From assembly GCA_902590435.1 (NCBI GenBank), contig CACIWU010000004.1:1-53924 (forward strand): DNA of 53,924 nucleotides. Reading direction: 5' to 3'. Position numbers and translations under genes: made by a program. The notes beneath the pieces were generated by a model. It was given only the letters and a program-made list of their open reading frames with translations, ran no database searches and was not told the DNA's origin. This DNA comes from an uncultured SAR324 cluster bacterium (GTDB taxonomy: Bacteria; SAR324; NAC60-12). Numbering within the stretch: position 1 is the first letter of the stretch; each line of letters begins with the position of its first letter. Positions 2 to 14,682 of this stretch are shown here, piece after piece.

Positions 2-505
2 GGTTATACCCTTTCAAAGGGTGACGCATACTGGACTTTTTCAGGAGGATTGGCTGGGATAATTGCAGCTTCTGCTGGAAACGATCTTTATCATCCACTT
101 CAGGCATTCCTAGTTGCTATTGTCGGAGTTATAATAGCCTACAAACTCCATTATTGGGTTGAACGCAAATTTAAGATTGATGATGCTGTTGGGGCTGTTG
201 CAGTCCACGGTTATGCTGGTTCTTTTGGTGTAATAATAGCTGGATTTTTACTATGGGGCTACCCCGCAGTAGCAGATGGATCTTCTACTATTAATCCGCT
301 TGGTCAAATTGGAGGAGCTATCATGATGTTTCTTGTCTTAGGATTTATTCCTGCATACATAGCTTCTAAAATTCTAAATGGTATCGGAGTATTACGGATT
401 CCAAAAGAGGTTGAATTAGCTGGACTAGATTATGTAGAAGATCAAGACTTAGAATCCGAAAGTAAGGAAATTATCAATGCCGAATTAGCCGAAGCGAATA
501 GCTAA
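2..505 (+). CDS. amt: Ammonium transporter (Amt/MEP/Rh family), C-terminal part, truncated by window start
   Basis: Frame open from base 2 (GYTLSKGDAYWTFSGGLAGIIAASAGNDLYHPLQAFLVAIVG...DDAVGAVAVHGYAGSFGVI), typical Amt C-terminal TM segments with the D-D-x-x-G-A-x-x-V-H-G motif. Confidence 0.9.
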   Translation, partial: GYTLSKGDAYWTFSGGLAGIIAASAGNDLYHPLQAFLVAIVGVIIAYKLHYWVERKFKIDDAVGAVAVHGYAGSFGVIIAGFLLWGYPAVADGSSTINPLGQIGGAIMMFLVLGFIPAYIASKILNGIGVLRIPKEVELAGLDYVEDQDLESESKEIINAELAEANS

Positions 506-523
506 TTCTGTTACTAACTTTTA

Positions 524-751
524 ATGGAGAAATTTATGAGTACTGGACTAGAAAGCTGGAGTGCTGAATCTTTGGCGAAAATGGATGCTCTTTATCCTTT
601 TGTTGGTACAGAAGTATCTCTATCTATCATAGCTATTATCATATGGATCGGTTGGCACGTCTGGCAGATAAAGCATGAAAATAGCTCATTAGATGACCAA
701 ACTAGTAAATTGAAAGGTAATCTTTCAAAGGCTATCTCTGGTGATAAATAA
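524..751 (+). CDS. Small single-TM protein downstream of amt
   Basis: 75-aa ORF, probable start at the second Met (536), one hydrophobic helix (SLSIIAIIIWIGWHVWQI), co-directional 18 bp after amt. Confidence 0.65.
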   Translation: MEKFMSTGLESWSAESLAKMDALYPFVGTEVSLSIIAIIIWIGWHVWQIKHENSSLDDQTSKLKGNLSKAISGDK

Positions 752-762
752 TATTTAAATTT

Positions 763-791
763 ACGTTGCCGCTGATTTTAAGCGGCAACGT
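763..791. terminator. Perfect 11-bp stem hairpin between convergent genes (candidate bidirectional terminator)
   Basis: ACGTTGCCGCT-gatttta-AGCGGCAACGT; GC-rich relative to surroundings; lies between the + stop at 751 and the - stop at 866; no clear U-tract follows. Confidence 0.5.
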
Positions 792-865
792 ATCGACCTT
801 GCCTTATTATTTAGAATTTTTCCTAAAATATTGTATAAAATTTCATGTACCAACGTATTTTATAA

Positions 866-2170
866 TTAAACATCGAGAGCGTTTGTGTGCTCCCATTCAG
901 TAAAATACTGCATGAAACTGTTCCATTCTTCCATTTTTAACTTAAAGTAAGAATCAGCAAACTCAATTCCAAGTATCTTTCGCAAATTTTTGTTTTTTTC
1001 AAATGATCTCAATGCATCAAGAAGATTCAAGGGAAGCCTAGGTGCATCTATCTTGTCTCCATCTTTGTACATATCAACATCAAGTCTTTTGCCAGGATCA
1101 ATTTTATTTTCAATACCCCACATTCCTGACCCAATAAGTGCTGCTTGAAGCAGATAGGGATTAACAGCACCATCAGCAAGTCTTACCTCAATACGATCTG
1201 AATCTGGAATTCGAATCATATGAGTCCGATTGTTACCTGAATAAGTAACTGTATTCGGAGACCAAGTTGCTCCTGAAGAAGTACGTGGAGCATTAATTCG
1301 CTTGTAACTATTTACAACTGGATTTGTAATCGCAGTCAAACTTTCAGCATTTTTTAGTAATCCTCCAATAAAATTGTAAGCAAGTTTAGAAAGCCCTAGT
1401 TCTCCATTTGCATCTTCCATTAAATTTGTTTTTCCATCGTTACTCCAAACAGAAATATGTGCATGACAACCGTTACCAGTTAAAGACGATAATGGTTTTG
1501 GCATAAAGGTTGCGCGAAATCCGTGCAATTCAGCAATAGTCTTCACCATGTATTTGAAGAATGTATGTCTATCTGCTGTTGTTAGTGCTTCAGAATAATT
1601 CCAATTCATTTCAAACTGTCCGTTTGCATCCTCATGATCGTTCTGATATGGCCCCCAGCCAAGTGTCTCCATGTGATCACAAATTTCTGCAATAAGATCA
1701 TATTTTCTCATAAGGGCTTGCTGATCATAACAAGGCTTTGTTTGAGAGTCAGTAGAATCAGCAATTGATTTACCATCTGGAGAAAGTAAAAAATATTCAC
1801 ATTCAACTCCAGAATTAATAACATATCCCTTTGTATTAGCACTTTGTAAAACTTTTTTGAGGATCGTTCTTGGTCCATGAGATACTATTTTTGTATCAAG
1901 ATATATATCACTAGGCAACCAACCCACTTCTTTATTCCATGGTAATTGAATCAGTCTTTCCGCATCAGGAAGACCAAACATATCTGAATCTGCAGGAGTC
2001 ATGTCAAGATGTGCTGCAAAGCCAGCAAACCCGGCTCCTTCTTTTTGCATTCCCGCTATTGCACTAGTTGGTACAAGCTTTGATCTAACAACTCCAAATA
2101 AGTCCGTAAAACTTATTAAAAAATAGCGGATATCTCTTTTCTTAGCTACCTCTTCAAGTCTAATATTCAT
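866..2170 (-). CDS. Glutamine synthetase homologue, GlnT (type III)/gamma-glutamylmethylamide synthetase-like
   Basis: 434 aa; GS motifs VECEYF, DHEDANGQFEMNW, NGCHAHISVW, RIEVRLADGAVNPYL; length and layout like GlnT/GmaS; lacks the canonical DGSS loop. Confidence 0.85.
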   Translation of the reverse strand: MNIRLEEVAKKRDIRYFLISFTDLFGVVRSKLVPTSAIAGMQKEGAGFAGFAAHLDMTPADSDMFGLPDAERLIQLPWNKEVGWLPSDIYLDTKIVSHGPRTILKKVLQSANTKGYVINSGVECEYFLLSPDGKSIADSTDSQTKPCYDQQALMRKYDLIAEICDHMETLGWGPYQNDHEDANGQFEMNWNYSEALTTADRHTFFKYMVKTIAELHGFRATFMPKPLSSLTGNGCHAHISVWSNDGKTNLMEDANGELGLSKLAYNFIGGLLKNAESLTAITNPVVNSYKRINAPRTSSGATWSPNTVTYSGNNRTHMIRIPDSDRIEVRLADGAVNPYLLQAALIGSGMWGIENKIDPGKRLDVDMYKDGDKIDAPRLPLNLLDALRSFEKNKNLRKILGIEFADSYFKLKMEEWNSFMQYFTEWEHTNALDV

Positions 2171-2410
2171 TAGTTCCTCCTAAGTATTAAAATATATTTT
2201 CAAAAAGTATTATTTAACATGTAACAATATTTTTCATAGATTGTTATAAATCATCTTTAAAATGAAATACATAAAAAAAATTAATAATGTTAGGAGAAGA
2301 TATATACTTCTTCTCTGAAAAAAGTAATAAAATTAAATTTATTGTCTTGAATTAAAAATTTTTGTAAATAATACTTACATTTTTCTTAACGCTTGGAAGA
2401 ACTGACGACT

Positions 2411-4762
2411 ATGGATCTCGCAAAAACAAGATCAACTTCTGGAATTTTGGAACCTGGTCTTTGGCAACATAAAAAGGGGACAGAGCGTTACCGTGTTCCT
2501 GCCTCCGGGATGATTTTAGTTGAGTTATACTCGGATGATGTAATAACAGTTAAAACTCCTGAAGGTGCTCAGATAGGAGAAATAATTCCCTTTACAGTCA
2601 ACGGAAACGGAGATCCAGCTCTTCTAGGTATAAACAAAACTTTACCCGCTAATGGATTAAAAGGAATTCTTGCTGGAAAATCTGAAAGTGCAATAAGAGT
2701 TCGCAATGTAATGGAAAAAATGAAACTTGATATCTCTACAGCTAAAGCCGCTTTAATTTTTTCGCCGGATTCTAAAGCCAATGAAGAGGTAAGTTATACT
2801 GCAACTTCTCAAACTTCATGTGCCATTACTGCACCAGGAATGATTATGGCAGTTGATGGAGAGAGTTTACCACCAACAGATCTAATAGTTTATGTTCAAA
2901 GAGCATCAATTCCAGAAGAAAATGAAATTGAGCTACCTGAACCACTTGCTGAACCGCGACTCGACTTCAGGATTGATCGTTGTACAGCTAAAGCATTTGA
3001 AGTAAAAGATGGTGAATTTATTCAGGTCATTGACGTAATGGGAAGGGAGTGTTCGGATTTTCAAGCATTTAATAGAAGACAATTAGATATTGGTATTGAA
3101 AGGAATATAGATGTTACAACAACCAGAACTCTTATGGGATCAGGCTATCCAAGTCCTGGTCTTTTTTCAAAATATTATGATGTAGATATGCAACCTCTTG
3201 TCGAAGTAATTCGTGATACTGTAGGAAGGCATGACACTTTTGGTTTGGCGTGTGCAGCAAAATACTACGAAGACATGGGATATTTTGGTCATATCAACTG
3301 CTCAGACAATTTTAATAATGCTCTTGCTCCTTTCAACGTTAAAGAACGCAAAGGGTGGGCTGCAGCAAATTTCTTCTTCAATACAGGTATCGACGAACAC
3401 AATGTTCTATATAGTGACGAACCATGGTCACGTCCTGGAGATTATGTTTTAATGCAGGCTCAAACTGACATAGTTTGTGTATCCTCAGCATGTCCAGACG
3501 ACACCAGTCCTGCAAATGGTTGGGTTCCAACAGATATTCACGTCCGGGTTTACCCGGCAAAAAATAATTTCACTAAAGCTATAACCACTAGAATGACTCC
3601 TGATTCCGAAGCTAAACTTACACAAGAGACCGGTTTTCACCCCAGGACATCGGCACTTACTAGAAACTATACTGAATATAGGGGGTACTGGCTGCCAACT
3701 TGTTATAGAAATAATGGTGCCATAGAAGAATATTTTGCATGTCGAGAAAAAGCCATTGTAACTGACCTTTCGCCACTCAGAAAATTTGAAATTTTAGGTC
3801 CAGATTCTGAAGCACTAATGCAATGGGTTCTAACTCGTAATGTTAGAAAATTAGCAATCGGACAAGTTGTTTATTCTTCCATGTGCTACCCTCATGGAGG
3901 GATGATGGACGATGGAACATTACTGAGACTGGGGCAAGATAATTTTCGATGGATTGGTGGCGATGATTATGGAGGGATTTGGATAAGGGAGCAAGCAGAA
4001 AAACTAGGTTTAAAAGTTTGGGTAAAATCATCAACTGATCAGATACATAATATAGCGGTTCAGGGACCAAAAAGCAGAGAAATTCTTAAGAAATTTGTTT
4101 GGACATCTCCAACTCAACCAAAATTGGAAGAGATAGGTTGGTTTAGATTCACACTTGGTAGAATTGGAGATCTAAATGGTAAACCAATAATGGTTTCTCG
4201 CACTGGTTATACTGGAGAATTAGGATATGAAATTTGGTGTCATCCGAAAGATGCTACGGAAGTGTGGGATATTGTTTTGGAAGAAGGTAAACCACATGGA
4301 ATTCTACCACTAGGCTTGGAAGCTTTGGATATGCTTCGAATTGAATCCGGACTTGTCTTTGCGGGCTATGAATTCAGCGATGAGATTGATCCGTACGAAT
4401 CAGGTGTTGGATTCACAGTCCCTCTAAAAACAAAGGAAGATGATTTTGTTGGACGAGATGCACTTGTAAAACGCAAGGAAAATCCTCAACGTAAACTCGT
4501 CGGCCTTGAACTAGAAGGGAATGAACAGAGTTCACATGGAGATTGTGTTCATGTTGGAAGGGGTCAAGTGGGAATAATTACTAGCGGTACGCGCTCTCCA
4601 ATTTTAAAAAAGAATATTGCTCTGTGCAGAATGGATGTTAATTATTCAGAAGTTGGTACAGAAGTTCAAATTGGTAAACTTGATGGACATCAAAAAAGAA
4701 TCCAGGCAGTAGTTGTTCCTTTCCCATTCTATGATCCAGAAAAACTCAAACCACGATCTTGA
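2411..4762 (+). CDS. DUF1989 + GcvT (aminomethyltransferase) fusion, trimethylamine-N-oxide demethylase (Tdm)-like
   Basis: About 780 aa; DUF1989-like region with conserved Cys (RECSDFQAFN, HINCSDNF, DIVCVSSACPDDTSPANGW) then GcvT folate-binding domain (SRTGYTGELGYEIWCHP, LGLEALDMLRIESGL). ATG at 2411 is preferred over the TTG at 2393. Confidence 0.8.
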   Translation: MDLAKTRSTSGILEPGLWQHKKGTERYRVPASGMILVELYSDDVITVKTPEGAQIGEIIPFTVNGNGDPALLGINKTLPANGLKGILAGKSESAIRVRNVMEKMKLDISTAKAALIFSPDSKANEEVSYTATSQTSCAITAPGMIMAVDGESLPPTDLIVYVQRASIPEENEIELPEPLAEPRLDFRIDRCTAKAFEVKDGEFIQVIDVMGRECSDFQAFNRRQLDIGIERNIDVTTTRTLMGSGYPSPGLFSKYYDVDMQPLVEVIRDTVGRHDTFGLACAAKYYEDMGYFGHINCSDNFNNALAPFNVKERKGWAAANFFFNTGIDEHNVLYSDEPWSRPGDYVLMQAQTDIVCVSSACPDDTSPANGWVPTDIHVRVYPAKNNFTKAITTRMTPDSEAKLTQETGFHPRTSALTRNYTEYRGYWLPTCYRNNGAIEEYFACREKAIVTDLSPLRKFEILGPDSEALMQWVLTRNVRKLAIGQVVYSSMCYPHGGMMDDGTLLRLGQDNFRWIGGDDYGGIWIREQAEKLGLKVWVKSSTDQIHNIAVQGPKSREILKKFVWTSPTQPKLEEIGWFRFTLGRIGDLNGKPIMVSRTGYTGELGYEIWCHPKDATEVWDIVLEEGKPHGILPLGLEALDMLRIESGLVFAGYEFSDEIDPYESGVGFTVPLKTKEDDFVGRDALVKRKENPQRKLVGLELEGNEQSSHGDCVHVGRGQVGIITSGTRSPILKKNIALCRMDVNYSEVGTEVQIGKLDGHQKRIQAVVVPFPFYDPEKLKPRS

Positions 4763-4922
4763 CTTCTTATTTTTTTTAAGTTAGATTTGCAACCATTAAA
4801 AATTATAACATTATAAAAAATGAAAACAATAAAAACGGGCAAAATGTATTTTATTCTTTTAGCCCAATATTTCCAAATTTCATATGAAAAATCTTTCACA
4901 AAAAAAGAAATAATGAGGTAAC

Positions 4923-6389
4923 ATGACGGACTTAGAAGCATACGTTAGCGCAGATGGAAGGAATGAACTAGTAAAACAAGTTAGATCAAAAATAAATGAA
5001 CTTGGAATAACCTATATTTATTATCAATTTATTTCAGTTACAGGAAGAATAGTTGGTAAAGGTATTCCAGCTGATCACTGGGAAAGAACTGCAGAAAGGG
5101 GCTTCCAACTAGTCTATGGATCTACTGCAAATCTATTCATCGACCGACATGGAGATTACATTGGTTATGGTCCAGAAGCAATGGAGCTCGTCGGAATTCC
5201 TGATCCAGAAACATTCTGTCAATTACCATGGGATAAACGAGTTGCAAGAGTTTTTTGTGTTTGTTTTCGAAATCGTGAAGAAAGAGAGAATCCTGGCATG
5301 GCTTTAACATCTGATTGCAGGGGAAATCTCAAACGTTTCCACAAAGAATTCCAAGAAAAATACAATATGGATTTCAGAGTGGGAACAGAACCCGAAATGA
5401 TGTGGCTCAAAAAAGGTGAAGACGGAAAGCCGAATGGTGGTTTCTCTGAACCATATTGTTATCACATTGATCAGTTTGAATCTTTAAGGCCCGTTTTTAT
5501 GAAAGTAATCGAATACTGTAATGCAATGGGACTAGATATGATTCAAGGAGATCATGAGGACGCTCCAGGACAGCTAGAGTTAAATTGGACCTTCGATGAT
5601 GTAGTTCGAAATTCTGATAGACTATCTACTTATAGGCAAATATGTGCACAAGTAGCACGTGAAAACAATCTAATCGCCTGTTTTATGACTAAACCATTTA
5701 TGGGAGTTTCAGCATCGGGTTGCCATACGAATATTTCTCTTTGGAAGGGAGGAAGCCAATCAGTAAACAAACTTCACAACGATGTACTTCCTGGTATGGA
5801 GGATGTTTTTACTTACCGAAGTGGTGGAGAAAACACGTTTATGCCTGACACAGATGATCCACAAATGCCTGGTAAGATTGGCCTGCAATGTGTGGGTGGA
5901 ATAGTTAATCACTTGGGAGCTCTCACAGCTTTAGGTTGCTCAACTGTAAACTCATATAGACGTCTTTGGGACACAGGTTTCTGGGCACCTGTATTTGCAG
6001 ATTGGGGATATCAAAACCGAACAACAGGTCTTCGTATCTCAGCTCCTGGAAGATTTGAATATCGTGCAGTTGATTCAATGGTAAATCCATACTTGATGGG
6101 TGCAGCTCTTCTAAAGGCATTTGAAGATGGCATCGACAACAATATCGACCCTGGGAAACCTGAAAATCGTAACATTTATCAAGCAATGGAAGAAGGAAAA
6201 CAAGTCAAGAAACTACCTATGTCTTTGGGAGAAGCTCTTGATCGTCTCGCTAAAGATGAGGTCATTAAGTCTTCAATGCCCGATGAAATGTACAGAATTT
6301 TCCATTGGTACAAGAACGACGAATGGGAGCGGTTCATGCACACTACAACCGAATGGGATCTAGATACATATCTTGATTGTTTGCCCTAA
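4923..6389 (+). CDS. Second glutamine synthetase family protein
   Basis: 488 aa; VGTEPEMMWL, GDHEDAPGQLELNW, SGCHTNISLW, RFEYRAVDSMVNPYL GS motifs; divergent N-terminal domain. Confidence 0.85.
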   Translation: MTDLEAYVSADGRNELVKQVRSKINELGITYIYYQFISVTGRIVGKGIPADHWERTAERGFQLVYGSTANLFIDRHGDYIGYGPEAMELVGIPDPETFCQLPWDKRVARVFCVCFRNREERENPGMALTSDCRGNLKRFHKEFQEKYNMDFRVGTEPEMMWLKKGEDGKPNGGFSEPYCYHIDQFESLRPVFMKVIEYCNAMGLDMIQGDHEDAPGQLELNWTFDDVVRNSDRLSTYRQICAQVARENNLIACFMTKPFMGVSASGCHTNISLWKGGSQSVNKLHNDVLPGMEDVFTYRSGGENTFMPDTDDPQMPGKIGLQCVGGIVNHLGALTALGCSTVNSYRRLWDTGFWAPVFADWGYQNRTTGLRISAPGRFEYRAVDSMVNPYLMGAALLKAFEDGIDNNIDPGKPENRNIYQAMEEGKQVKKLPMSLGEALDRLAKDEVIKSSMPDEMYRIFHWYKNDEWERFMHTTTEWDLDTYLDCLP

Positions 6390-6465
6390 ACGCTCTTTCA
6401 AAAAAATACTAGCAAATAAAAATTTTAAATGAAAAATATTTTTTTTAATTGAGGAGGAATTTTTT

Positions 6466-7401
6466 ATGTGTGGTATTGCAGGAATAATACACCGAGGGAA
6501 ACCTGGGAATATCGGTGGAGAAATAACCTCAATGCTCAGATCCTTGAAACACAGAGGACCAGATTCAACTGGATTAGCCGTGTATGGTATTCCGGATAAT
6601 AATCAATGTGTCATGCGATTTAAGGTTGCTGAACAGGAAGATGTTAGTAAGGGTTTCAATATCCATCAGGAAATTAAAGATCGACGTAAAGTTGTGAATA
6701 ACCGTCTTAAAGAGCTTGGTGTAAAAATATTATCTGAGGATGTAGCAACAGAATATGCTTTTCGATACACCTTAAGCTATGATGGAGATATGCATCATTT
6801 GGCAGATTACATTGAAGACATAGAAGGTACAGAAATTATGTCTTTAGGAAAAGCACTTGAATTAATTAAAGATTTAGGAGATGCGGATGTAGTTTCAGAT
6901 CAGTATGGTATTGCCAATTTCAAAGGTAGTCATGCTATCGGGCATACTCGTATGGCAACTGAGTCAGATGTTGATATTCGATCTGCTCATCCATATTGGG
7001 CATATCCTTTCAATGATGTGGCTGTCGTCCACAATGGACAGTTGACAAATTATTGGAACTGGAGAAGGAATCTAGAACACCGTGGCCATCGCTTCATGTC
7101 TAACTGCGATTCAGAGCTGATTGCTGTTTATTTAGCAGATAAAATGGATCAAAAGATTGAACTTATCGATGCCATGCATGACTCTTTAGATGAGCTTGAT
7201 GGTGTATTTACATATGTTGTAGCAACTTCTGATAAACTAGGAATGGCGAAAGATTATATGGCGGCAAAACCAATGGTTCTTCATGAATCTGATGATTTTG
7301 TTGCGCTCGCTTCAGAAGAAGTTGCCATTCGCAGCATATTTCCACATGAAATTGATACATTTGATCCATATGAAGGTGAGGTTAGAGTATGGGAACTATA
7401 G
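6466..7401 (+). CDS. Class II glutamine amidotransferase-domain protein, GlxB/MgsA-like
   Basis: N-terminal MCGIAGIIHRG with Cys2, LKHRGPDSTG, GHTRMATES, VVHNGQLTNY. Confidence 0.85.
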   Translation: MCGIAGIIHRGKPGNIGGEITSMLRSLKHRGPDSTGLAVYGIPDNNQCVMRFKVAEQEDVSKGFNIHQEIKDRRKVVNNRLKELGVKILSEDVATEYAFRYTLSYDGDMHHLADYIEDIEGTEIMSLGKALELIKDLGDADVVSDQYGIANFKGSHAIGHTRMATESDVDIRSAHPYWAYPFNDVAVVHNGQLTNYWNWRRNLEHRGHRFMSNCDSELIAVYLADKMDQKIELIDAMHDSLDELDGVFTYVVATSDKLGMAKDYMAAKPMVLHESDDFVALASEEVAIRSIFPHEIDTFDPYEGEVRVWEL

Positions 7402-8228
7402 AAAAATCATTCGACGCTGGATTGCACACTGAACAACTTCGTGGAAGAACTCAGCAAACTTTTTTTTCATCAACCGAAGAAGAAAATTTTATTTATCCGT
7501 ACAATGGATTTGAAGTCGATATTGATAAAAAAACTGAATTTGATGCCCAAGATTTGGAAAGTTCAGAAATAAATCTAAAAATTCGTAGTCTAATGAAAGA
7601 AGGCTATGGACACATTGTCGTTAAAAATCCGCGAGCAAAACACTCAATTGGAGTTGGAATTCTCAACAGACTTTCGCTTGAATTCGAGGGTAGTCTCGGT
7701 TACTTCGGATGTGGTTTAGTTGACGGTCCAAATATTCATATTTCTGGAAGAGTTGGATGGTCATTTGGTGAAAACATGATGGCAGGGACTATCGTTGTAG
7801 AAAAGAACGCTGGATCAACATTTGGAGCTGCGATTCGTGGAGGTGATCTAGTTTGTAAAGGAGATGTAGGATCTAGAACGGGTATAGATATGAAAGGTGG
7901 TAACATTATAGTTGGTGGTCGAACAGGGACTCTATCAGGATTTATGATGCAGAGAGGCAGAATGATTGTCCTCGGAGATGCTGGTCCAAATTTGGGAGAT
8001 TCAATGTACGACGGTACAATATACATTGGGGGTAAAATTGATTCTTTAGGAGTAGATGCTGTTCAATCTGAAATTACGGATCTAGAAATAAAATGGATTG
8101 AACGTAAACTTTCTTTATATGGTCTAGAGGCACCAAATGGTGCTTCTAAATTACAAAAGATAGTAGCAGGAAAACAATTATGGAATTACGACAATCTTGA
8201 ACCTTCTGAAAAGAAGATTGTTCTATAG
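7389..8228 (+). CDS. Glutamate synthase GXGXG (beta-helix) domain protein, GlxC/MgsB-like
   Basis: Repeated G-x-x-x-G units (GGDLVCKGDVGSRTGIDMKGGNIIVGGRTGTLSGFMMQRG); overlaps previous ORF by 13 bp. Confidence 0.85.
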   Translation: MGTIEKSFDAGLHTEQLRGRTQQTFFSSTEEENFIYPYNGFEVDIDKKTEFDAQDLESSEINLKIRSLMKEGYGHIVVKNPRAKHSIGVGILNRLSLEFEGSLGYFGCGLVDGPNIHISGRVGWSFGENMMAGTIVVEKNAGSTFGAAIRGGDLVCKGDVGSRTGIDMKGGNIIVGGRTGTLSGFMMQRGRMIVLGDAGPNLGDSMYDGTIYIGGKIDSLGVDAVQSEITDLEIKWIERKLSLYGLEAPNGASKLQKIVAGKQLWNYDNLEPSEKKIVL

Positions 8229-8279
8229 GTTGAAAAATTATTTTTAATCATACACTTTAATTTAAATTAAAAGAACACT

Positions 8280-9611
8280 ATGGCAAGGAATAAATCAGTA
8301 TTGGGGAAGAGTTTCATTTTTCAGCCAGAGGTAATAGATGATATCCATATTAAGGCTGAACTAGGAAGATATAGAATGAGAGGTATGTCTTTGTTTAAAA
8401 ACATCCCGACATGGGATGATCTCACTTTTTTACCAGGAACTCTCACTAGATTTGTAATTGAAGGTTATCGAGAAAAATGCTTAACTAAGACTGTTATTGG
8501 TCCAAAAGCTAAAAGACCTTTGGAATTAGACATTCCAATATATATTACTGGAATGAGCTTTGGTGCGTTGAGCTATGAAGCTAAAACTGCACTGGCTAGA
8601 GGAGCAACAATGGCAGGTACAGCAACCTGTTCCGGTGAAGGAGGTATGATTCCAGATGAACGAAGATATTCATCAAAATGGCTATACCAATGTATACAGT
8701 CCAGATATGGATTTAATCCTCATCATCTAAGACTTGCAGATGCCTGCGAATTCTTTATTGGACAAGGATGTAAGGTTGGTCTGGGCGGTCACTTAATGGG
8801 ACAAAAAGTAACAGATCAAGTTGCAGAAATGCGTTCACTTCCAGCAGGGATAGATCAAAGATCTCCTGCCCGACACCCGGACTGGTTAGGACCTGATGAT
8901 CTAGCCTTAAAAATTCAAGAAATAAGAGAAGCAACAGACTGTCAGATTCCTATCCAGCTAAAACTTGGTGCTGCTCGCGTATACGACGACGTTCGCATGG
9001 CTTTAAAAACAAATCCGGATAGTATATATATTGATGGAATGGAGGGGTCTACTGGTGCAGGACCTCATCTCGCCACAGAAGAAACAGGAGTACCTGGAAT
9101 TGCTGCTATAAGACAAGCTCGTAAGGCATTCGACGATTTAGGCTACACTGGGAAAGTTTCTCTAGTTTATGCAGGGGGGATTCGTAATGGTGCTGATGTA
9201 GCAAAAGCTCTTGCATTAGGGGCAGACGCCATAGCAATTGGTCATTCTGCCATGATGGCACTTAATTGTAACAAAGACATACCTGAAGCAGACTACCAAG
9301 AGGAAATGGGAGTAGATGCTGGAGATTGTTATCATTGTCATACTGGTCGTTGTCCAGTTGGAGTTGCAACTCAGGATCCTGAATTAAGGAAAAGGCTTAA
9401 TCCTGATGAAGCTGCAGAACGTGTTTACAATTTTCTTCACTGTCTGACAATTGAATGTCAAATGATGGCTAGAGCTTGCGGGAAAACTAATGTTCATTCC
9501 TTAGAACCGGAAGACTTAGCCGCTCTAACAATGGAAGCTTCCGCTTTAGCCCAAGTACCATTAGCTGGATCACAACACACAGTAGGAAGACCAGATATGA
9601 ATCGCTACTAA
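8280..9611 (+). CDS. FMN-binding glutamate synthase-like domain protein, GlxD/MgsC-like
   Basis: ITGMSFGALSYEAKTALARG, IQLKLGAAR, DGMEGSTGAGP, Fe-S motif DCYHCHTGRCPVGVATQDP. Confidence 0.88.
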   Translation: MARNKSVLGKSFIFQPEVIDDIHIKAELGRYRMRGMSLFKNIPTWDDLTFLPGTLTRFVIEGYREKCLTKTVIGPKAKRPLELDIPIYITGMSFGALSYEAKTALARGATMAGTATCSGEGGMIPDERRYSSKWLYQCIQSRYGFNPHHLRLADACEFFIGQGCKVGLGGHLMGQKVTDQVAEMRSLPAGIDQRSPARHPDWLGPDDLALKIQEIREATDCQIPIQLKLGAARVYDDVRMALKTNPDSIYIDGMEGSTGAGPHLATEETGVPGIAAIRQARKAFDDLGYTGKVSLVYAGGIRNGADVAKALALGADAIAIGHSAMMALNCNKDIPEADYQEEMGVDAGDCYHCHTGRCPVGVATQDPELRKRLNPDEAAERVYNFLHCLTIECQMMARACGKTNVHSLEPEDLAALTMEASALAQVPLAGSQHTVGRPDMNRY

Positions 9612-9691
9612 GTAATTCAGAAATATTAAAAAATAGATCTTTTATTTTTTTTTAATCTTAATACTTAAAAAACATTTAGATTTTAATTAAT

Positions 9692-10072
9692 ATGACTACA
9701 AAAAACGATGAACTAGTTCCAGAAGATTTAGGAACAGAAAGAGAAAAAGAAATTGGTCAGCATATTGGTTATAGATATGATGTAAATCTTGTACCTGACT
9801 ATGAGCGTCTTACTCCTTTTCTCAAGAAATATATTGAAACGATGGGATGGGAAGACCTTAACTGGTTAGAGGATGTCCATATGGGTTACGAGGAGGATCG
9901 TGCAGCTGTATTTGATCGTAATATCAACGGATGGGTAACTGTCCCAGAAGAAATGGCATTGCCAGACAATCAACAGGATCGTGATATGATTGCCCGTGAA
10001 TTATTGATCAAGTTTCAAATGTCAAAACGACATCCTATGGTACTGCTCGAAGAAACTTATGGAAAATTTTGA
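9692..10072 (+). CDS. Conserved-looking acidic 126-aa protein of unknown function at the end of the amine cluster
   Basis: Co-directional 80 bp after GlxD-like gene; clean ORF, no recognised motif. Confidence 0.65.
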   Translation: MTTKNDELVPEDLGTEREKEIGQHIGYRYDVNLVPDYERLTPFLKKYIETMGWEDLNWLEDVHMGYEEDRAAVFDRNINGWVTVPEEMALPDNQQDRDMIARELLIKFQMSKRHPMVLLEETYGKF

Positions 10073-10127
10073 AAAAGATCTTATTATTCTTTTTCTTGAT
10101 GCTTGATTTTTTATATTTTATAGCATC

Positions 10128-10791: not shown

Positions 10792-11628
10792 TTAAAATCC
10801 AAATGGTTTGTCATTATTTAGACTCGGAATTCTAATCCTCGTCATATTAACCTCTTCTAGATTAATATTTACATTTATAAAACCTGGACTAGTCCCTCCA
10901 TCAGCAAGAATCTCTCCCCAAGGATTAATGATCAATGAATGACCATAACATTCACCACCTCCTTCTATTTTTCCTATAGAACATGGCGCTATAACAAAAG
11001 CCCCATTTTCTATTGCACGCGCTCTGTTAAGTACGTGCCAATGAGCCTTACCAGTTTTTTTTGTAAAAGCTGCAGGTACAAACAAAATTTCTGCCCCCTT
11101 TTTTGATAACTCACGAAAAAGATTAGGAAATCTCAAATCATAGCAAATTGTATGTCCTATACAGCCCCAAGATGTCTTTGAAATAACTGCTTTATTACCA
11201 CCATGTACAGTTTTACTTTCTAAATATGATTCTCTTTCTGATAATTTTATATCAAAAAGATGAATTTTGTCATATCTGCTAATGATGCTACCATAGTCAT
11301 CAATAATGTAGCTTCGATTCAATATTTTTTCATCTGGACCGCTTATTGCGATAGAACCAATAAGAATGAACTTCTTTTTATTTCTTGCAAATTCTTTTAG
11401 ACCCTTCAAAACTGGATGTGATTCTTCGGGACTAAAAGGAGGTGAAAAAGAATAACCTTCTGTTTTCAATCCTCCACAATATTCAGGAAGGGTTAGCATA
11501 TCTGCACCAGCCTCAATTGCATTTTCTGCATGACATATTGCTTCATCAAGAGAGGACTTAAAATTAGCTTTTGGACTTATTTGAAGGCAAGCAACATTAA
11601 ACTGTCTTTTGTAATTTTTTTTTCTCAC
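10792..11628 (-). CDS. Carbon-nitrogen hydrolase (nitrilase/Nit/omega-amidase-like)
   Basis: E-K-C triad context: LPEYCGG, RYDKIHLFDI, GHTICYDLRFPNLFREL. Confidence 0.88.
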   Translation of the reverse strand: MRKKNYKRQFNVACLQISPKANFKSSLDEAICHAENAIEAGADMLTLPEYCGGLKTEGYSFSPPFSPEESHPVLKGLKEFARNKKKFILIGSIAISGPDEKILNRSYIIDDYGSIISRYDKIHLFDIKLSERESYLESKTVHGGNKAVISKTSWGCIGHTICYDLRFPNLFRELSKKGAEILFVPAAFTKKTGKAHWHVLNRARAIENGAFVIAPCSIGKIEGGGECYGHSLIINPWGEILADGGTSPGFINVNINLEEVNMTRIRIPSLNNDKPFGF

Positions 11629-12709: not shown

Positions 12710-13303
12710 TCAATAATTTATCTCTGGAATTGCAATTGAATTGGACCAATCTGGACGAAAAATTAATACTCGTGATTCTGGAGATATACTAGGATTAAAA
12801 AGGAGGTTGTGCCAATAAGTAAATTGATAACCTATATCCTCATTTTTTAATTCATCCACAAAACAACAAATTTTAAATGATTGCTTCTGGTAGTCAAAAT
12901 TTAGTAAAATTTTTTTTTCGTTTAAAATATGTGTTGCTGTTATAGAATTTTTTGGGAAAAGTCCTGTCATCAATCCTTCAAAATCTGCATTATGTTGAAA
13001 AAATGTTGATGAAAGAATCTCGATTACTTTTTTGTACCTTTCATTAGGATCATTAGTTTTTTTAGCTATAAATCGGAACTGTAATACACTTTCAAGTGGG
13101 TTTTTGGGTACTAAAAGTAATATAACCGAAGAATTTAATTCTTTATCGTTTGCACTCAGGACTCGAGGACAAATCCCAAGTGATGGACGCCCATTATTAT
13201 TTCTCAAAGAATATTCCCTTATACGGCACTGCCAACCAATAAAGTGCCTCTGAATATTTAAATTACTATAACTAGAATCACTTTCTTTTGATTCTGATTT
13301 CAT
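12710..13303 (-). CDS. Uncharacterised 197-aa protein downstream of the FAD oxidoreductase
   Basis: Clean ORF; (H)FIGWQCRIREYSLRNNNGRPSLGICPRV N-terminal segment; 47 bp after the oxidoreductase stop. Confidence 0.65.
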   Translation of the reverse strand: MKSESKESDSSYSNLNIQRHFIGWQCRIREYSLRNNNGRPSLGICPRVLSANDKELNSSVILLLVPKNPLESVLQFRFIAKKTNDPNERYKKVIEILSSTFFQHNADFEGLMTGLFPKNSITATHILNEKKILLNFDYQKQSFKICCFVDELKNEDIGYQFTYWHNLLFNPSISPESRVLIFRPDWSNSIAIPEINY

Positions 13304-13350: not shown

Positions 13351-14682
13351 TCAACTCCATGGGAAAGGACTATTTGAAACCGGATGTAAATTACCTTTCT
13401 CAAAACGATTAAATCGAAAAGGATCTAATAACGTACTTGATTCACCCATTATTTCTTTAGAAACTAGTTTACCAACTCCTATCATTTTCCAACCATGATT
13501 TGAGTCTGCTATCACATAACAGTTTTCATGAAAAACATCAAAAACGGGAAAACTATCAGGAGCTAATGCACCGAGTCCTCCCGAGGGTTTTTCTCTGTAA
13601 AGGTTTCTACTACCTTCAAATCGTTTTTGACAGAAAGCTAATGCAGAACACCACATATCTACAAATTTTTTACCAACTACAAAGTCTGGAGATTCCGTAC
13701 CGTAAGGATCTACACTAAAATCTTCTCCTGTATTATCAACATTATAAGGTGCTGATCCACCTTGAATCCCATCAAAACTGAAATCTGGTTTATAATATAT
13801 ACCCCACATTTTATCTGTTATTAAATTACCATTCGTATCTGAGTAAAGTGGTACATCAGAATCAACATGGACAACTGGAGGCATTTTACCTTCATTTGTT
13901 TTTAGCATGTTTGGATCAACACCCAAAGTTCCTTCCTGTAAACAGTAATATCGCCACATTTCCACATCTTCAAAATATTTTTCGCCATCCTTAATTCTAA
14001 TCTTGCGCGGTAGGTTTAAAATTTTCCAAAAATTATTTATCCATGGACCTACACCGACTACTAAGTAATCTATTTTTATTTCTCCTATATTTGTAATTAC
14101 TTTAGAAATAGATTTTCCTGAATATTCAACTCCCAATACTTCCACATTGCCAATAATTAAAACTCCCTCACTTTCTGCTTTAGCTGCAAGACCCTCTAAA
14201 CACTTCCTGTTATTAGAGTAACCACCCTTTTTCTCATGCAGAACCGATGTTATCCCTTTCGCATGCCAATCATCGAAAATACCTCGCATATAACTCATTG
14301 AATCTTCACTACCCTCTATAAACTCAGAAGGATAGCCAATGGCTTTTTGTTGTTCATAAATCGAAGATACATCAGAACGCATAACTTCTGGACTAATTTG
14401 CATGTAACCAACAGGATGATAACTATAATTTTTGGGATCACTTTCCCATACCTCCACACTATGTGCCATCAATTCGCGCATAGCTGGTTGGAAATAATTA
14501 TTTCTAACCACACCGCAAGCAATTCCTGAAGCACCCGCTCCAATACCAGATTTGTCAATTACAATTATATCTTTTCCGCTTCCAAGCCCACGATTTTTTA
14601 ATTCTAGTGAAAGATGATATGCGGTACTAAGGCCATGAATTCCTGAACCAACAATTAGGTACTTTGTAGTACTAGGTAACAT
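13351..14682 (-). CDS. FAD-dependent oxidoreductase, DAO family (sarcosine oxidase/DadA-like)
   Basis: N-terminal Rossmann YLIVGSGIHGLSTAYHL, VIDKSGIGAGASGIACGVVR, YLVVGVGPWI, C-terminal NCYVIADSNHGWKMIGVGKLVS. Confidence 0.88.
   Translation of the reverse strand: MLPSTTKYLIVGSGIHGLSTAYHLSLELKNRGLGSGKDIIVIDKSGIGAGASGIACGVVRNNYFQPAMRELMAHSVEVWESDPKNYSYHPVGYMQISPEVMRSDVSSIYEQQKAIGYPSEFIEGSEDSMSYMRGIFDDWHAKGITSVLHEKKGGYSNNRKCLEGLAAKAESEGVLIIGNVEVLGVEYSGKSISKVITNIGEIKIDYLVVGVGPWINNFWKILNLPRKIRIKDGEKYFEDVEMWRYYCLQEGTLGVDPNMLKTNEGKMPPVVHVDSDVPLYSDTNGNLITDKMWGIYYKPDFSFDGIQGGSAPYNVDNTGEDFSVDPYGTESPDFVVGKKFVDMWCSALAFCQKRFEGSRNLYREKPSGGLGALAPDSFPVFDVFHENCYVIADSNHGWKMIGVGKLVSKEIMGESSTLLDPFRFNRFEKGNLHPVSNSPFPWS

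Follow-up and report, generated by a model that had tools for sequence, protein, structure and literature searches.

A glutamine synthetase-like module beside the TMAO demethylase gene of a SAR324 bacterium: a candidate for dimethylamine use

Which step of methylated-amine metabolism is served by a second glutamine synthetase-like gene located next to a TMAO demethylase gene? This question is raised by the window analyzed here, i.e., the whole stretch of 53,924 nucleotides from an uncultured SAR324 cluster bacterium, which extends from base 1 onward of contig C4.

Gene content of the locus

The interval comprises two methylated-amine units plus the TMAO demethylase Tdm. The components listed in the first-pass annotation, namely amt, two glutamine synthetase (GS) homologues, a DUF1989+GcvT fusion, and a split glutamate-synthase trio, were all recovered computationally at or near the positions assigned to them. 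The gene amt (2–505, plus strand; ammonium/methylammonium transporter, PF00909 with 73 bits) is represented by its C-terminal part and lacks the N-terminal part, because the window starts at the first base of the contig. The first GS homologue (GS1; 866–2170, minus strand) was identified as gamma-glutamylmethylamide synthetase (GmaS), since it exceeded the TIGR03105 cut-off (622 vs. 470 bits), fell inside the GmaS clade, and featured GmaS-like residues (Asp50' replaced by Ala and Glu327 by Trp); it matched the solved GmaS 7cql with 592 bits. The fusion (2393–4762, plus strand) is, judging from its sequence, a TMAO demethylase, with an NF053776 score of 1199 bits (curated cut-off 1100) spanning residues 25–788 and 982 bits to PDB 9q59. 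It is full-length and showed no notable difference from the Tdm family (SPO1562, Msil_3606-type); SAR11, SAR324, and gammaproteobacterial relatives share 53–80% identity with it. Enzymes of this family convert TMAO to dimethylamine (DMA) and a C1 unit (formaldehyde). The proposed use of methylated amines by this cluster is supported, as are the identities of GmaS and Tdm.

The second GS homologue (GS2; 4923–6389, plus strand) contains a Gln-synt_C domain, but reached only 296 bits for TIGR03105, below the cut-off of 470. In the tree, it was placed outside the GmaS clade of 36 sequences, both clades being well supported. In glutamine synthetase, Asp50' and Glu327 bind and deprotonate ammonium. 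GS2 carries Val at the ammonium-site position Asp50' and Trp at the flap position Glu327, whereas GlnA of E. coli and the genome's own GlnA (contig C23) have Asp and Glu at these positions. A role as ammonium glutamine synthetase was rejected on the basis of these residues, neither of the two being kept, as in GmaS. The identity of GS2 to its counterparts amounted to about 80% for those of SAR11 and 93% for those of marine gammaproteobacteria, and it is the orthologue of SAR11_1305; its equation with SAR11_1316 (glnT/GmaS) was rejected on the basis of neighbourhood tables and published locus tags, SAR11_1316 being GmaS.

GS2 is followed by the three genes of the trio, here termed trio A. They encode a glutamine-amidotransferase subunit (6466–7401, plus strand; GATase_6/7) with the N-terminal motif MCGI including the nucleophile Cys, a GXGXG subunit (7389–8228, plus strand; PF01493), and an FMN glutamate-synthase-like subunit (8280–9611, plus strand; PF01645 with 303 bits) featuring a three-Cys Fe-S motif at about 9324–9374. 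One reading of GS2 and trio A is a miniature GS-GOGAT system assimilating ammonium supplied by amt, as trio A resembles a split glutamate synthase with its glutaminase subunit and Fe-S cysteines, and amt was found near the module in 21 out of 44 loci. This reading is disfavoured and appears highly improbable, because GS2 is devoid of both ammonium-site residues and an ordinary GlnA featuring both is encoded in the same genome.

Two genes had been missed by the first-pass annotation: orf126, downstream of trio A (9692–10072, plus strand), and a SoxB-like flavin oxidase (DAO; 13351–14682, minus strand), which is located outside the interval considered then but forms part of this module in related loci. 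The highly conserved 126-aa product of orf126, an orthologue of SAR11_1309, showed 67–90% identity over 33 diverse relatives and was present in 39 of the 44 module loci. Searches of its sequence against Pfam and NCBIfam and of its AF2 model (pLDDT 76, confident core) against PDB folds returned no match; it probably acts together with trio A, either as a partner or as a fourth subunit. DAO, an FAD oxidoreductase (PF01266 with 106 bits; the closest of the solved sarcosine oxidases matched with only 50 bits) and orthologue of SAR11_1304, is encoded directly upstream of GS2 in SAR11, where it is 60% identical. It was detected in 27 of the 44 loci, is not near the module in the other 17, and is proposed to act as an N-methyl(dimethyl)glutamate demethylase.

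The 197-aa protein encoded by orf197 (12710–13303, minus strand; near the module in 20/44 loci) may possess an FMN-binding split-barrel fold, its AF2 model (pLDDT 92.6) yielding weak split-barrel matches (best PDB match: E 1.6e-3, TM about 0.4). A CN-hydrolase (nitrilase/omega-amidase-like; 10792–11628, minus strand; PF00795) is a tentative member, a homologue adjoining the module in 7/44 loci (56% identical in locus L187). Matches in promoter and terminator scans were no more numerous than in shuffled sequence.

Relationship to the N-methylglutamate pathway

GS2, trio A, and orf126 constitute a separate module, which is often joined by DAO and orf197. The same module corresponds to SAR11_1304–1309, located between tdm and amt, and was found in dozens of SAR11 genomes; where these genes have published names, they are called monomeric sarcosine oxidase, glutamine synthetase, or hypothetical protein. 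The gene tdm is a neighbour of the module not only in SAR324 but also in SAR11 and many gammaproteobacteria.

With the N-methylglutamate pathway of methylotrophs and Roseobacters (GmaS, MgsABC, MgdABCD), the module shares a GS-fold amine ligase without an ammonium site, a split GATase/GXGXG/FMN trio in the same three-gene order, and a sarcosine-oxidase-like flavoenzyme. In contrast to this pathway, it includes the additional orf126, a single-gene DAO in place of MgdABCD, and a ligase only about 25–30% identical to GmaS and of another clade; moreover, it is linked to Tdm and exclusive with the dimethylamine monooxygenase Dmm. The first two trio A subunits are 58% and 62–86% identical to their counterparts in SAR11 and in relatives, respectively, but only about 30% to canonical MgsA and 34–42% to MgsB. 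The FMN subunit (about 50–51% identical to canonical MgsC) lies outside the canonical MgsC clade, which is monophyletic with a support of 1.0, and canonical MgsC adjoins GmaS in congeners that also possess the window-type trio. The former equation of the trio with MgsABC was therefore abandoned; with its shared three-gene order, trio A may nevertheless work like Mgs. The Fe-S cysteines separate the two trios only in part, since the motif is present in 33/33 trio A FMN subunits and lost in 12/16 canonical MgsC, while four of the 16 canonical-clade sequences keep it.

In agreement with the previous observation that the Mgd step is absent locally, genes for a heterotetrameric sarcosine oxidase or Mgd were not seen in an inspection of the window ORFs by eye. 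Elsewhere in this genome, contig C78 harbors a partial SoxA/MgdC gene with SoxG- and SoxB-like genes, which scored below the TIGR01372 cut-off and may be specific for either sarcosine or N-methylglutamate. Mgd may thus possibly be encoded elsewhere in the genome by this SoxA/MgdC-type set.

PuuA and the GS-like ligases from amine clusters of Paracoccus, Ruegeria, and Rhodococcus are comparable to GS2 as enzymes of the GS fold making gamma-glutamyl amides. These clusters, however, feature aldehyde dehydrogenases, P450s, or gamma-glutamyl hydrolases and contain no glutamate-synthase-like trio. Relatives of GS2 with 54–55% identity are encoded on Rhodobacterales plasmids in other amine-degradation contexts, and the wider GS2 family is therefore not DMA-specific.

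Near mutual exclusion with DmmDABC

To evaluate the co-occurrence of GS2 and Dmm, 60 genomes with a true Tdm were sampled in three strata and subjected to a stratified exact test. Exactly one of the two systems was present in 58 out of 60 genomes (Dmm only, 31; GS2 only, 27), one genome possessing both (G663) and one neither (G339). The pattern appeared in each of the three strata (p = 6.6e-8, a value not corrected for phylogeny among these related genomes). A further genome, G019 of genus g4, also contains both, but GS2 is located there on a 4.2 kb contig. Among genomes without a true Tdm, Dmm or GS2 was detected in 1 out of 18. Within the SAR324 family, genus g1 featured GS2 in 9/17 genomes and Dmm in none, whereas genus g2 featured Dmm in 6/6 and GS2 in none; all 23 GS2-carrying SAR11 and gammaproteobacterial genomes covered by this comparison were without Dmm. 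The PF11927-type Dmm subunit yielded no match in the genome itself (G000; 54% complete) and all its 16 congeners.

The additional GS, correctly noted in the first-pass annotation, is no mere accessory: it forms the basis of a second module, and this module and dimethylamine monooxygenase nearly exclude each other. DmmDABC, whose metabolic step after Tdm the module is proposed to fill, has no protein related to those of the module; it is composed of subunits of an oxygenase and a reductase together with a GcvT protein, and includes no ligase. Owing to the near mutual exclusion, the missing step filled by the module is most likely the DMA step rather than the N-methylglutamate step, and the module, being located beside Tdm and almost only where Dmm is absent, probably represents the missing DMA route.

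Alternatively, the GS2 module could operate beside or instead of GmaS/MgsABC as a second N-alkylglutamate system, not specific for DMA but for monomethylamine or a broad range of alkylamines. Canonical MgsC was not detected in 29 out of 53 GS2-carrying genomes, although several encode GmaS, and trio A may accordingly work for GmaS as well; the GS2 relatives in other amine clusters likewise fit this explanation. It is nevertheless unlikely, as it leaves the near-total exclusion of Dmm and the link to Tdm unexplained, and GmaS/MgsABC and the GS2 module occur together in many genomes.

Proposed dimethylamine route and its meaning for marine bacteria

We consider it somewhat more probable than an even bet (about 0.55) that the GS2 module replaces Dmm and handles the DMA released by Tdm, with substrate and chemistry inferred. 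Tdm would convert TMAO to DMA and a C1 unit, and GmaS would handle monomethylamine; the latter enzyme acts poorly on DMA (Km 16 mM vs. 27 uM for monomethylamine; PMC7948447). GS2 would ligate DMA to glutamate at the expense of ATP, yielding gamma-glutamyl-dimethylamide. This amide would be cleaved by the GATase subunit of trio A and its DMA handed on to the FMN/Fe-S subunit, where reductive coupling with 2-oxoglutarate would yield N,N-dimethylglutamate. The methyl groups would then be removed by DAO or a SoxA/Mgd-type dehydrogenase, via N-methylglutamate to glutamate. In two genomes (G065 and G751), trio A is absent and GS2 is accompanied by canonical MgsABC instead, so the GS2 product looks Mgs-like.

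The Fe-S motif of trio A could, however, serve an oxidative instead of a reductive reaction. An FMN barrel combined with an Fe-S cluster is likewise typical of the known DMA and TMA dehydrogenases. Trio A itself might accordingly be the demethylase: DMA freed by the GATase subunit would enter a tunnel, and its dehydrogenation by the FMN/Fe-S subunit would yield methylamine and formaldehyde, with electrons leaving via the Fe-S cluster and methylamine being taken by GmaS. The motif's invariance in trio A and frequent loss in MgsC, the co-occurrence of GmaS at many loci, and the occasional absence of DAO nearby are in line with such a role. It is quite doubtful, though, given that the FMN domain belongs to the glutamate-synthase rather than the TMA-dehydrogenase family, and that GS2 occurs in G751 and G065 with canonical Mgs and without trio A. 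Our literature search for dimethylglutamate or glutamyldimethylamide in connection with bacterial dimethylamine had no result, a wider search returned only a paper on the SAR11 TMAO transporter, and the literature searched contained no earlier proposal of such a role for the module.

Lidbury et al. 2017 (PMC5520151) concluded from the lack of dmmDABC that DMA is probably not demethylated by SAR11 and further abundant bacteria of the sea, so that it should accumulate, escape to the air, and seed aerosols. SAR11 strain HTCC1062, on the other hand, grows with TMAO as sole nitrogen source without dmmDABC, for which an unknown 'isoenzyme' was invoked (PMC8918994). The chances are roughly equal for and against SAR11, SAR324, and many marine TMAO users employing an oxygenase-independent DMA route (a gamma-glutamyl-dimethylamide synthetase plus a four-subunit glutamate-synthase-like enzyme) in place of DmmDABC, so that the 'DMA bottleneck' would not be as described. 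The GS2 module represents a concrete, testable candidate for the missing SAR11 DMA step. If this is true, it would fill the bottleneck in SAR11, gene surveys based on dmm only would under-estimate the oceanic consumption of DMA, and SAR11_1304–1309 would gain a function.

Gene content and modular organisation of the cluster

Contig C4, from a 54% complete genome of 1.5 Mb, begins with the window, and the contig start truncated the first gene, of which the amt C-terminus remained. It is followed by GmaS (GS1, 866–2170) on the minus strand and, on the plus strand, by the DUF1989+GcvT fusion (2393–4762), a second GS homologue termed GS2 (4923–6389), the GATase (6466–7401), GXGXG (7389–8228), and FMN (8280–9611) subunits of a split glutamate synthase, termed trio A, and a 126-aa ORF (orf126, 9692–10072). 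Judged by database scores, GS1 is GmaS (above the TIGR03105 cut-off; 592 bits against the solved Rhodovulum GmaS), and the fusion is Tdm (1199 bits against NF053776; top PDB match ‘trimethylamine N-oxide demethylase’), supporting both assignments of the first-pass annotation. The GC content of 37–39% across the cluster dropped to about 30–33% over the remaining window, with a break at about 10000–10100, and given this drop the cluster may have been acquired or be under different selection.

The interval comprises two separate modules. In SAR324 congeners, GmaS was adjoined by canonical MgsABC (N-methylglutamate synthase), and Tdm-GS2-trio-orf126 was arranged divergently from these genes, followed on the opposite strand by orf197 and the SoxB-like flavin oxidase DAO (window: 12710–13303 and 13351–14682, both minus). 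The SAR11 gene order was Tdm-DAO-GS2-trio-orf126-amt-(canonical trio, in some genomes)-GmaS. Based on this order and on the tags in the papers, not on the HTCC1062 sequence, SAR11_1303 corresponds to Tdm, 1304 to DAO, 1305 to GS2, 1309 to orf126, 1310 to amt, 1313–1315 to canonical MgsABC, and 1316 to GmaS (PMC3160333, PMC5069961, PMC2704228).

The FMN subunit of the window shared 79–95% identity with its counterparts in GS2-linked trios (SAR11, SAR324, and gammaproteobacteria) and about 51% with canonical MgsC, which formed its own clade in the tree (support 1.0); the trio thus fell outside canonical MgsABC, and its earlier equation with N-methylglutamate (NMG) synthase was rejected. GS2 likewise fell in a clade separate from GmaS (24–30% identity), so that of the two GS homologues only GS1 remained with GmaS. 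With GS2 outside GmaS and the trio outside MgsABC, the GS2 module, although its parts resemble those of the N-methylglutamate pathway, is classed as a variant of it. Within 44 loci from many lineages, picked for GS2, its neighbourhood included the trio (43/44), orf126 (39/44), DAO (27/44), Tdm or another GcvT protein (27/44), amt (21/44), orf197 (20/44), and a CN-hydrolase (7/44; window 10792–11628, minus strand).

In the congener locus L105 (607–5308), canonical MgsABC lies between amt and GmaS, two genes that are only about 360 bases apart in the window (505–866); canonical MgsC was not found in the 54% complete window genome. Furthermore, the window GS2 (as well as those of G016 and G019) was 90–93% identical to gammaproteobacterial GS2 and 78–81% to most congeners (compared with L019, L099, and L105), and the adjoining trio was closer to congeners. 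This mismatch points to gene-level transfer or recombination within the cluster.

Active site and relatives of GS2

Alignment to E. coli GlnA revealed that GS2 kept the metal-binding glutamates and the histidine, and featured Val at Asp50' and Trp at Glu327. The corresponding residues are Ala and Trp in GmaS, and Asp and Glu in the GlnA of the window genome. Loss of both residues in GmaS accompanies use of an amine instead of ammonium (PMC7948447). From its sequence, GS2 thus most likely acts as an amine ligase.

GS2-like proteins (54–62%) paired with a second GS-like protein were also encoded on a Paracoccus sp. TOH plasmid (L109), a Ruegeria plasmid (L110), and at loci L192–L196, together with, where annotated, P450, aldehyde dehydrogenase, ABC transporter, or gamma-glutamyl hydrolase genes. 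These loci probably represent a related gamma-glutamylation route for some amine. On the Gordonia sp. KTR9 plasmid pGKT2 (L112, 9782–12367), a GS2-like domain and an annotated FAD-dependent oxidoreductase share a single open frame, possibly a natural fusion of ligase and oxidase partners.

Distribution of GS2 and Dmm

Tdm produces dimethylamine (DMA). Since GmaS is poor on DMA (Km 16 mM; PMC7948447) and SAR11 lacks DmmDABC, the known enzyme after Tdm (PMC5520151), GS2 was tested as a stand-in for Dmm. Even samples of genomes were drawn from three groups: two classes, one defined by a SAR11 and the other by a gammaproteobacterial genome, and the order to which G332 belongs (by inference Rhodobacterales). 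True-Tdm genomes were searched for Dmm (PF11927, at least 210 bits; a weaker class of 129–186 bits was uncounted) and GS2 (at least 67% identity, or an 88% identical fragment in G582), with score cut-offs fixed once both score classes had been seen. Two centre genomes chosen for carrying GS2 and G513 (ambiguous Tdm; Dmm, no GS2) were left out.

In total, 31 out of 60 true-Tdm genomes carried Dmm only, 27 GS2 only, one both, and one neither (stratified exact p = 6.6e-8, counts not corrected for phylogeny), and the exclusion was found in all three strata (p = 0.0003, 0.014, and 0.015). Among 18 genomes that lacked Tdm or encoded only a lower-scoring paralogue, Dmm or GS2 occurred in one (G087). 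The same swap was repeated inside separate groups. In the SAR324 family, genus g1, including the window, carried GS2 in 9/17 and Dmm in 0/17 genomes, and genus g2 carried Dmm in 6/6 and GS2 in 0/6. Dmm was detected in none of the 23 GS2-carrying SAR11 and gammaproteobacterial genomes checked.

No full Tdm was found in the Dmm-carrying g2 genomes (G017, G024, G027–G030), which may use DMA directly. A 4.2 kb contig (C81, L009) of G019, which belongs to another genus and also carries Dmm, contains Tdm-GS2-trio with 90% GS2 identity; the contig may be a contaminant, or the genome may be a true second example in which both systems occur. Seven Rhodobacterales genomes (G102, G718, G730, G734, G746, G750, and G754) encode a DUF1989+GcvT paralogue reaching 1020–1067 bits against the Tdm model, probably a demethylase for another substrate, and had neither high-scoring Dmm nor GS2.

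HTCC1062 was reported to grow on TMAO without dmmDABC, for which an unknown ‘isoenzyme’ was invoked (PMC8918994). No paper giving SAR11_1304–1309 a DMA role was found in the literature searched, which left most subscription papers and preprints outside, where earlier proposals may exist. A ‘general amine oxidase’ expressed under N limitation, its locus unnamed and its DMA role unconfirmed (PMC5520151), may be the DAO of the GS2 module.

Proposed route and role of trio A

We infer a route in which GS2 would form gamma-glutamyl-dimethylamide, the GATase of trio A would free DMA, and the FMN site would couple it to 2-oxoglutarate, with orf126 as a probable partner of trio A; DAO and/or a SoxA/Mgd-type enzyme would then demethylate the product. 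The middle step is suggested by analogy with GmaS/MgsABC and by G065 and G751, where GS2 is accompanied by canonical MgsC and no trio A; the G065 cluster that contains GS2 also includes Mgd-like, Mgs, and GmaS genes. A three-cysteine Fe-S motif was kept in 33/33 trio A FMN subunits and lost in 12/16 canonical MgsC, suggesting an outside electron partner; the motif would also fit a rival, less likely route in which trio A itself oxidises DMA directly.

On contig C78 of the window genome, a partial SoxA/MgdC-like gene adjoins SoxG- and SoxB-like genes, and NMG dehydrogenase (Mgd) may be encoded elsewhere, as first proposed. However, the same set in congeners lies next to genes resembling, by eye, electron-transfer flavoproteins, and use of sarcosine and use of NMG are therefore equally likely. 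Given this set, local absence of Mgd is no evidence for an Mgd-free pathway.

Canonical MgsC was not found in 29 of the 53 GS2-carrying genomes searched, the window genome (G000) among these; genome incompleteness may account for part of these cases. Several of the 29 carry GmaS, and where canonical MgsC is absent, trio A may serve both ligases, GS2 and GmaS.
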